This document shows positions 27,867 to 31,605 of a stretch of 32,259 bases of DNA, piece by piece. A program made the position numbers and the translations under genes. A model generated the notes under the pieces. That model was not told where the DNA came from, did no database searches, and saw only the letters and a program-made list of their open reading frames with translations. The stretch spans positions 5,352 through 37,610 of the IMG/VR virus record IMGVR_UViG_3300030106_005554; one strand, written 5' to 3'. Each line of letters starts with the position of its first letter. Position 1 is the first letter of the stretch. This DNA comes from a virus.

Positions 27867-28148
27867 ATGGGATTTCCTCAAATTAAAGATGTAACAATGT
27901 TGGCCGTAGTTGAGAAGGCTATGCAGAACGACCCTGTTCACTACTGCGGGCAGTTCTTACACGACAATAACGAGACAGCAGAAACTCTTTCTGCTCTCGC
28001 TGTTGAGTTGGCTCGCAGTTGGTTCGAGACTGACGACACCGCTGAGATTGTAGCACACAGCACAATCCTGTCGTCTGTAATGTTCATGACCTATGAGATG
28101 CTCAAGGCTGAAACAGAAGCCAAAGAGCTGGAGGAGTTGATAGGATGA
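27867..28148 (+). CDS. Helical protein, 93 aa, unknown
   Basis: The ATG at 27867 has GGAG nine nt upstream; a farther in-frame ATG overlaps the micropeptide and lacks a ribosome site. All-helical character (TMLAVVEKAMQNDPVHYCGQ, AEIVAHSTILSSVMFMTYEM), ending in an acidic KAETEAKELEELIG. It overlaps the RMF-like gene by 4 nt. Not recognised. Confidence 0.72.
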   Translation: MGFPQIKDVTMLAVVEKAMQNDPVHYCGQFLHDNNETAETLSALAVELARSWFETDDTAEIVAHSTILSSVMFMTYEMLKAETEAKELEELIG

Positions 28149-28417
28149 ACAACTTCAGCAAAGCAACATCACACGGGGACGCCTACCGATGGGGATACGC
28201 CGCCAGTTATGACGGCACCCCAAAGGACGGCAACCCATATGACGGAGCGTTAGAATCAGACCATTATTATTTTTGGAACAATGGCTGGTGGGACGCAAGG
28301 CGAGCAGAAGAACAGCGAAGCAAGTACTGGCGAAACTTTGGCCACAACTGGAAGCTGTGGAGCTATGTCGTTCACGATATGAAGAACAACCCTGACAAAT
28401 ACTGCAGCCTGCCATAA
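28145..28417 (+). CDS. RMF/CrpP-like small protein
   Basis: 90 aa. The segment AYRWGYAASYDGTPKDGNPY, a short linker, then FWNNGWWDARRAEE follows the ribosome modulation factor pattern (A...GY.A...G.....CPY......W..GW..A). RMF dimerises and inactivates ribosomes in stationary cells; CrpP and many phage proteins share the motif with other or unknown roles. In an early phage region it could tune host translation. The Cys before PY in RMF is Asn here. The C-terminal tail (KLWSYVVHDMKNNPDKY) is extra. The stop codon lies in the loop of the following cassette hairpin. Motif-level match only. Confidence 0.6.
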   Translation: MNNFSKATSHGDAYRWGYAASYDGTPKDGNPYDGALESDHYYFWNNGWWDARRAEEQRSKYWRNFGHNWKLWSYVVHDMKNNPDKYCSLP

Positions 28418-28498: not shown

Positions 28499-28526
28499 TT
28501 GACATTGACGATATATATAGTATACT
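28499..28526 (+). promoter_or_regulatory. Array promoter P12 (drives no ORF)
   Basis: TTGACA, 16-nt spacer TTGACGATATATATAG, TATACT, preceded by CTAAAGTTT. No ORF with a ribosome site follows for ~270 nt; the transcript would begin at the candidate RNA. Confidence 0.85.
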
Positions 28527-28530
28527 CTTA

Positions 28531-28700
28531 GTATAAGACAGCAGCCCAGTTAAAGCCTTAGTAGCCCCTGTGAGTCCGGTGAATTATCGCGATTGAAATA
28601 GCGGCAGGGGGACAGCATCGGTAAGACGGTGTAGGGTGTAGATGGTACGGCTTGCCATCCTGTTTGTCTTGCCTTATACAAAAGGGTAAAGGCCGCTATT
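28531..28700 (+). ncRNA. Candidate structured non-coding RNA
   Basis: It begins at the expected P12 transcription start. GTATAAG (28531-28537) can pair with CTTATAC (28673-28679) and ACAG with CTGT (28538-28541 / 28660-28663), closing a ~150-nt domain. Inside it: CCCCTG/CAGGGG (28565-28570 / 28605-28610), CATCG/CGGTG (28616-28631, with a G-U pair) and GATGG/CCATC (28641-28659). A competing pairing AATAGCGGC/GCCGCTATT (28597-28605 / 28692-28700, nine perfect pairs) would break the first hairpin. The region has no ORF. It matches no RNA family I can name. No intrinsic terminator follows; P13 starts 44 nt later. Confidence 0.55.
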
Positions 28701-28743
28701 ATTCGCCAGCGCAAAAAAGTTCAAAAAAAGTTAAAGTTTGGGC

Positions 28744-28771
28744 TTGACAATGACGATAAATATAGTATAAT
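28744..28771 (+). promoter_or_regulatory. Array promoter P13
   Basis: TTGACA, 16-nt spacer ATGACGATAAATATAG, TATAAT, preceded by TTAAAGTTTGGGC. Confidence 0.88.
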
Positions 28772-28804
28772 TCAAGAGTAACAAAAACTCACAAAGGAGA
28801 AATC

Positions 28805-29224
28805 ATGGGACTAGACCAATACGCAACGGCTCGTAAGGGCGAACCTCGTAAAGTACCGCAAACGTGGACTACCACAGATGCAGACGGCAATGAGGAGGAA
28901 GTTGTAGAATATTACAACGAGTGGGAAGACTCTAAGGAGTTAGCCTGTTGGCGTAAGCATCCTAATCTACAGGGATGGATGGAAGACCTTTGGATCGAGA
29001 AGGGTAATAGTGGCGAGTTTAATTGTGTCGATTTGGAATTGACACTTGGAGACTTGGAAGCGTTGGAGGAATCACTAGATAATGAAGCATTGCCGGAAAC
29101 CACAGGTTTCTTCTTTGGTACTGACTCTAGTATCCACTACGCCGAGCAAGACCGTGAGTTTATCCGTGAAGCACGGGCAGCTATCAAGCAGGGCTACACG
29201 GTAGTATATTCGAGTTGGTGGTAA
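28805..29224 (+). CDS. MGLDQY-family small phage protein
   Basis: 139 aa. AAAGGAG lies before the ATG. The MGLDQYATA start, the middle ELACWRKHPNLQGWMEDLW and the end GYTVVYSSWW fit a family seen often in phages (start MGLD.Y, a W.K...L..W... motif, C-terminal V.Y.SWW). I know of no proven function. The central LELTLGDLEALEESLDNEAL is acidic helix. Single-gene unit between P13 and P14. Confidence 0.75.
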   Translation: MGLDQYATARKGEPRKVPQTWTTTDADGNEEEVVEYYNEWEDSKELACWRKHPNLQGWMEDLWIEKGNSGEFNCVDLELTLGDLEALEESLDNEALPETTGFFFGTDSSIHYAEQDREFIREARAAIKQGYTVVYSSWW

Positions 29225-30819: not shown

Positions 30820-31605
30820 ATGCTAAAATTCAGTAACGCAAACGCAAAAACCAAAGCACTCGCCAACGATTCAGAACTCGCAGAATATTTGACTGACAAG
30901 CGTAAAATCTATTCGCTTGACTTGCTATCAGGCCATTCGTGTCCATTCGCTCACGAGTGTCATTCTAAGGCCGTAGAATTATCCAACGGCAAGCGTAAAA
31001 TCAAGGACGGCAAACATACAAAGTTTCGTTGTTTCTCAGCGTCGCAAGAAGTGCAGTATACCAACGTGTACAATTTAAGGCGACACAATTTTGAGTTGTT
31101 AGCCAATGCACATCATTCAGACATGGTAAAAATCATCGACGATTCATTACCACCTAATGCAGGTATTGTTCGCATCCACGTTGCAGGTGATTTCTTCAAT
31201 CAGGAATATATGCACGCATGGTATACCGTCGCGCTGTTGAATCCCAATACGTTATTCTACGCTTACACCAAGTCGCTAAAATATTTACTCAGCGTTACAG
31301 AGTTTCCTATCCTACACAATTTTGTTTTGACCGCCTCATACGGTGGGCGTGATGACCATATGATTGACGAGTTCAATCTACGTTATGCTAAGGTTGTATT
31401 CAGCGAAGCAGAGGCAGCAGAGTTGGGGTTAGAGATTGACCACGATGACAGTCACGCAGCGAAGCCATCATTACGAGACCAAAGTTTCGCATTGCTCATT
31501 CACGGCACACAGCCAAAGGGCAGCGAAGCATCAACCGCACTTAGAGAGCTTAAAGGCAAGGGCTCATATTCACGAAAGACAAGTTCACTGGAGGTAGTAA
31601 AATGA
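30820..31605 (+). CDS. gp88-family phage protein
   Basis: 261 aa. It matches the family named after mycobacteriophage gene product 88: LDLLSGHSCPFAHECHSKAV (Cys-x5-Cys), the KFRCFSASQEV segment, RIHVAGDFFNQEYMHAWY, and LFYAYTKSL. The Cys positions (SCPFAHEC and KFRCFSA) suggest a metal or iron-sulphur site, and the HVAGDFF..EY....W pattern recalls a TIM-barrel strand of radical-SAM-like proteins; this is inference. The family is widespread in phages and has no proven function that I know. It opens the last unit under P16. Confidence 0.75.
   Translation: MLKFSNANAKTKALANDSELAEYLTDKRKIYSLDLLSGHSCPFAHECHSKAVELSNGKRKIKDGKHTKFRCFSASQEVQYTNVYNLRRHNFELLANAHHSDMVKIIDDSLPPNAGIVRIHVAGDFFNQEYMHAWYTVALLNPNTLFYAYTKSLKYLLSVTEFPILHNFVLTASYGGRDDHMIDEFNLRYAKVVFSEAEAAELGLEIDHDDSHAAKPSLRDQSFALLIHGTQPKGSEASTALRELKGKGSYSRKTSSLEVVK

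Follow-up and report, generated by a model that had tools for sequence, protein, structure and literature searches.

The window analysed here, a 32,259-nt stretch of a 43-kb IMG/VR virus record, carries a member of a small, knotted, non-coding RNA family that was previously unlisted. Besides the window, the family comprises 41 loci in IMG/VR phage contigs, with 32 distinct cores when the window is included, and its carriers are many uncultivated phages, probably mostly aquatic. The novelty that we claim is that of the fold and the family; structured phage RNAs as a general kind are already known.

The element is preceded on the + strand by a sigma70-type promoter at 28499-28526 (TTGACA, 16 nt spacer, TATACT; 11 of 12 matches to the consensus), in agreement with the initial annotation, which described a full-strength promoter followed by no gene and by a candidate structured RNA. 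Indeed, no plausible ORF is present on the + strand before the next promoter at 28744-28771, which has a 12 of 12 match. No tRNA or tmRNA was found in the window by ARAGORN or Rfam, and the window phage fragment has no tRNA, tmRNA or manA RNA. The position of the promoter is maintained in the window clade: it lies 26-38 nt 5' of a conserved GCC in eight loci (window, L015, L073, L075, L076, L078, L086, and L091) and about 100 nt 5' of it in L074, L077, L088, L090, and L093, where another hairpin is interposed. The latter five loci have a second conserved hairpin-rich leader, GUAAGUUAGCUACAACCCAGUUGGAACUACGCCGCUGGACUUGGUUCCCCGAAAGGGGCAUCUUAC, between the promoter and the element, which is perhaps another small RNA. 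The window has no canonical terminator 3' of the closing helix P1; terminator-like hairpins with T-runs were seen soon 3' of P1 in L094 and L298 and slightly later in L105 and L118.

The minimum-free-energy fold of 28531-28720 contains five helices, P1 to P5, all described here for the + strand. P1 is formed by AAGACAGCAG (28535-28544) and CUGUUUGUCUU (28660-28670). Within it, P2 joins CCC (28545-28547) to GGG (28634-28636). The A-GCC bases (28554-28557) make up the 5' strand of a pseudoknot, and its 3' strand is GGCU (28649-28652) in the CGGCU loop of the P5 hairpin (28641-28659, stem strands GAUGGUA and UGCCAUC). The A-GCC strand is followed by a conserved unpaired segment, UUAGUAGC (28558-28565; consensus UUCRUAGC in alignments A4 and A5), the P3 hairpin arm (28565-28611, CCCCUG...CAGGGGG) of variable length and loop, the GACAG conserved in the alignments (28611-28615) and the P4 hairpin (28615-28632), in which GCAUCG and CGGUGU close an invariant GUAAGA hexaloop. 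P3, P4, and P5 are the three internal hairpins expected from the first inspection, and all of them are conserved. For its composition, the single sequence has an ordinary folding energy (z +0.62; 144 of 200 shuffles fold equally well), therefore energy alone would not support a structured RNA.

The first relatives, L015 and L016, were fetched via a neighbouring 139-aa protein, and the remainder via pattern scans of IMG/VR. Since the search patterns held GACAG (required by most of them), GTAAGA, AGGG or GCCT/TAGC, the invariance of these letters is partly by construction. P1, P3, P4, P5, and the variable pair of the pseudoknot were not included in the patterns, and the GGG of P2 was present in just one of the four scans; the P5 stems were picked by a parser seeking complementarity. 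The family consensus can be written as P1 [ P2 - N-GCC - UUCRUAGC - P3 - GACAG - P4(GUAAGA) - UUA - P2' - P5(loop with GGC-N') ] P1', and the window RNA has all five helices, the N-GCC/GGC-N' pseudoknot and the UUCRUAGC...GACAG...GUAAGA series. RNA size across the family is about 90-190 nt. The distance from AGC to GACAG, which spans the P3 region, varies from 7 to 48 nt in the relatives, and part of the clade carries an extra domain of about 60-70 nt; these length changes argue against a conserved reading frame.

Two covariance models were used. Members score 43-77 bits with model R1, while everything else in the same loci scores 17 bits or less, and each whole phage record has one strong copy of the element. 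Model R2 was blind to the window, being built from members outside the window clade only. Its sole match in the window is located at 28542-28637 (49.9 bits, E about 1.6e-12).

The pairs themselves provide the main evidence. In alignment A4 (16 sequences), 94.7% of the P2/P3/P4 cells are paired and covariation is 0.44 vs 0.18 for shuffled data (0 of 500 shuffles). In alignment A5 (15 sequences, window clade left out), these helices are 96.9% paired, 11 of 13 pairs have changed on both sides, and covariation is 0.69 vs 0.27 shuffled (0 of 500 shuffles) and at most 0.15 when slid. P2 occurs as CCC/GGG, UCC/GGA, CUC/GAG, UUC/GAA, CUG/CAG, and CCG/CGG, the pairs of P3 covary, and P4 has 98.9-100% paired cells with both-side changes in four to five of its six pairs. 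The pseudoknot pair, formed by the base before GCC and the base after the P5-loop GGC, is kept as A-U, G-C, C-G or G-U in 26 of 27 distinct members (the exception is L293); the shuffled mean is 15.3, and none of 20,000 shuffles reaches 26. P1 strands pair far better within a member than when swapped between lineages (p 8e-11), and P5 is represented by 19 different stems, with GGC in the loop. The compensatory changes looked for in homologous phage loci are strong in P2/P3/P4 and the pseudoknot. Judging from this comparison of sequences, the structured RNA is real, and its support is comparative, not thermodynamic. Chance foldability of an intergenic stretch, with which the ordinary folding energy would agree, is already refuted by covariation and the blind model match, and we regard it as negligible.

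Two details of the initial annotation do not hold up in the relatives. A closing helix had been proposed between GTATAAG (28531-28537) and CTTATAC (28673-28679). The letters are there, but among 13 clade loci both halves are found in the window only, and the conserved P1 pairs AAGACAGCAG with CTGTTTGTCTT (28660-28670), one register inside the proposed helix, with AAG common to both. The second detail is a nine-base alternative pairing of AATAGCGGC (28597-28605) with GCCGCTATT (28692-28700), read as a switch. It can be traced in the window sequence, but both halves are present in 1 of 13 clade loci; L016 and L073 have the 5' half only, L091 has the 3' half only, and nine others lack the complete pair. 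The switch is thus not supported. GCCGCTATT seems to be part of the stretch downstream of the RNA (window, L091) rather than of the RNA itself. A short intergenic tail containing GCCAGCG and then an A-run precedes the next promoter at 28703-28717 in the window and is also located downstream of the element in L075, L086, and L015. With these two corrections, the proposal of a novel structured RNA under a promoter of its own is strongly supported by covariation, the blind R2 match and promoter spacing.

The impression that no known RNA class fits was borne out as well. Rfam 15 returned no family at gathering score for the RNA, and none even at E 10 on a 451-nt stretch; a preQ1-II match (15.4 bits, 28761-28807) lies outside the RNA and was considered a chance one. 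Blastn of the window region and the conserved cores against 50,697 deposited phage records found no homologue, including none in a cultured phage. No member was found with R1 in 289 Alphaproteobacteria genomes or with R2 in 369 genomes of the class to which a Pseudomonas genome belongs, 194 of the phylum to which a cyanobacterial genome belongs and 297 of a Pelagibacteraceae family, about 1150 bacterial genomes in total, searched with stricter filters that can lose weak matches. A pattern scan of genome contigs with 15 fixed bases was too loose and gave only chance hits among the matches listed. One 22-bit candidate (G090/L339) was rejected as it lies inside a protein-coding stretch resembling a penicillin-binding protein gene. 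No description of the family was found in the open-access literature (PMC), a limited set, so that an account in a subscription journal or a preprint is possible.

Genomic context was beyond the reach of the sequence-only view of the initial annotation and came as a surprise. In six loci (L096, L312, L313, L330, L332, and L333), alpha_tmRNA matches enclose the element: the tmRNA is a permuted phage one, and the element serves as its intervening segment, flanked by ...CTCCACCA on one side and by the G-run opening the other tmRNA piece on the other. This home is not obligatory, as it accounts for 6 of 42 loci. Twelve alphaproteobacterial tmRNA loci do not have the element, nor does the tmRNA locus of the Melnitz phage, where, as in L105, the slot is occupied by another sequence. 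In L107, L267, L300, and L119 the element is 34-81 nt away from tRNAs, and manA RNA is close to it in L105, L118, L298, L289, L312, L332, and L333. Overall, 10 of 18 lineages have a tRNA, tmRNA or manA RNA within 600 nt of the element vs 3.05 expected for random placement in the same loci, the lineages being not fully independent; no such neighbour is present in the window clade, L269, L288, and L293. Such neighbours suggest a link with translation or tRNA metabolism.

The phage tmRNA loci have some features of their own. In the permuted tmRNAs of phages, a helix flanks the intervening segment, the cargo of which varies (L105 5322-5733 (-), L340 1266-1718): L105 and the Melnitz phage have a possible small ORF there, and others have the new RNA. 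Permuted tmRNA, manA RNA and the new element form clusters in L105, L118, L298, L312, L332, and L333. In such clusters manA may belong to an RNA array rather than act as the leader of a metabolic gene.

Several other features were observed around the RNA in the window. A 90-aa ORF located just 5' of it (28145-28417, +) has weak likeness to ribosome modulation factor (RMF), below the cut-off both in Pfam (PF04957, 15.1 bits) and in NCBIfam (17.1 bits), and is another feature of the region that hints at translation control. No partner gene is common to all lineages. A GP88 family protein (PF17338, 127 bits) is encoded at 30820-31605 (+), and its relatives are found within 5 kb of the element in nine loci of several lineages. 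The hairpin TTGAGACNNNNTCTCA, with (A/T)TAAG or a similar sequence just 3' of it, occurs six times between gene blocks on the + strand (22797, 24364, 25938, 26583, 28447, and 30259), compared to 0.18 expected by chance. It has no T-run and is possibly a processing or termination signal.

Considering all of the above, we lean, with modest confidence, towards a stand-alone phage RNA of about 130-140 nt that acts in trans on a conserved host partner, plausibly one involved in translation or tRNA metabolism. This reading is favoured by the blind R2 match, covariation, promoter spacing and one strong copy per record, by the variability of downstream genes and the intervening new promoter at 28744, and by the location of the element inside tmRNAs and near tRNA, tmRNA or manA RNA. 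We infer that the RNA is transcribed and has its ends near P1; judging by the promoter at 28499-28526, transcription would start at or just 5' of P1. The product would fold into a multibranched core closed by P1 and locked by the pseudoknot between N-GCC and the P5 loop, leaving UUCRUAGC, GACAG, and the GUAAGA hexaloop exposed as three unpaired motifs that hardly vary. Three routes could release this core: its own promoter in the window clade, a terminator in L094 and L298 and, presumably, tRNA-type processing from tmRNA intervening segments and tRNA arrays. Early in infection, the RNA would most likely bind one conserved host partner in trans via the invariant loops; a regulatory RNA or the titration of a host protein, as initially suggested, is possible. 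Because of the permuted tmRNA, tRNA and manA RNA company, our best guess is that the partner has a role in translation or tRNA metabolism. The window clade, L269, L288, and L293, which have no tRNA-type neighbours, speak against this guess, and tRNA-gene adjacency could be due to co-transcription or to a site that tolerates insertion, not to a common function.

A broader version of this proposal can be put forward only tentatively. The element may represent a widespread phage RNA class that targets the host translation or tRNA-handling machinery, e.g., as a tRNA-elbow, RNase P or ribosome-binding RNA, and that has spread partly in the intervening segment of phage tmRNAs, to be released by tRNA processing.

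It is doubtful that the element is a cis-acting processing or protection module of phage RNA arrays, i.e., a stable knot setting RNA ends or spacing tRNA/tmRNA precursors. Its location in permuted tmRNAs, where the CCA end immediately adjoins it on one side and the 5' piece on the other, as well as in tRNA arrays, would suit such a role, but the window clade and L094 come with a promoter or terminator of their own and have no tRNA in the surrounding 1.4-3 kb. Moreover, a different sequence can fill the slot in the Melnitz phage and L105 tmRNAs, and a mere clamp needs no conserved unpaired loops.

A strict binder of the tRNA elbow or tRNA machinery, acting like RNase P, T-box or the L1 stalk via a T-loop-like module made of UAAGA in the P4 loop and UUCRUA, appears unlikely. 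UAAGA fits the U1...A5 closing pair that defines a T-loop (PMC4810234), and the tRNA and tmRNA neighbourhood agrees with such a function. However, the second motif deviates from a strict T-loop in L073, L119, L094, and L088, and neither RNase P nor T-box was matched in Rfam. From the sequence motifs, a T-loop-type tRNA-elbow module may be considered a clue rather than a finding.

Catalysis, by self-cleavage or otherwise, would account for excision from the tmRNA intervening segments, and the compact pseudoknotted core of the RNA, with its conserved unpaired bases, would be in line with it. Still, we consider it quite improbable, with no conserved putative cleavage site beside P1 and no Rfam ribozyme match.

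Even less can be said for a riboswitch or another cis-regulatory leader of the next gene, which we find very improbable. The conserved aptamer-like fold is located 5' of genes, and a related protein gene lies within 240 nt 3' of the RNA in the window, L015, and L075. But the separate promoter at 28744-28771 stands between the RNA and the gene, and the proposed alternative helix is not conserved. As the genes 3' of the RNA vary among the other relatives, cis regulation is unlikely.

Since the core of this RNA is conserved across quite different phage lineages, and each record has about one copy, selection appears to maintain the RNA in phages. Among known phage RNAs, GOLLD and ROOL are ornate, often located near tRNAs and several hundred nucleotides long; the new RNA is smaller (about 90-190 nt) and has no Rfam match. 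RNA C and RNA D of phage T4 (species 1 and 2 RNA) are likewise small and stable and belong to a tRNA cluster, and their function is unknown; homology to them was rejected, as the T4 locus (L242) has no match to either family model or the motifs. RNase P RNA has a GGUAAGAG hairpin loop which resembles the GUAAGA loop. T-loop logic is possibly shared with RNase P RNA, T-box leaders and the L1 stalk, but the architecture is different and no Rfam match was obtained. manA RNA (RF01745) resembles the new element in being a structured marine-phage RNA and in sharing clusters with it and with permuted tmRNA. It differs in giving a separate, non-overlapping Rfam match beside the element and in having been described as a candidate cis-regulator of mRNAs, its function being unproven (PMC2864571). 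Finally, the permuted two-piece tmRNA (RF04321, RF01849) houses the element as its intervening segment in six loci, although the element itself is not a tmRNA and stands alone in the window clade. Its presence in the intervening segments suggests a so far unnoticed cargo slot in phage tmRNAs and the production of small RNAs by tRNA processing.
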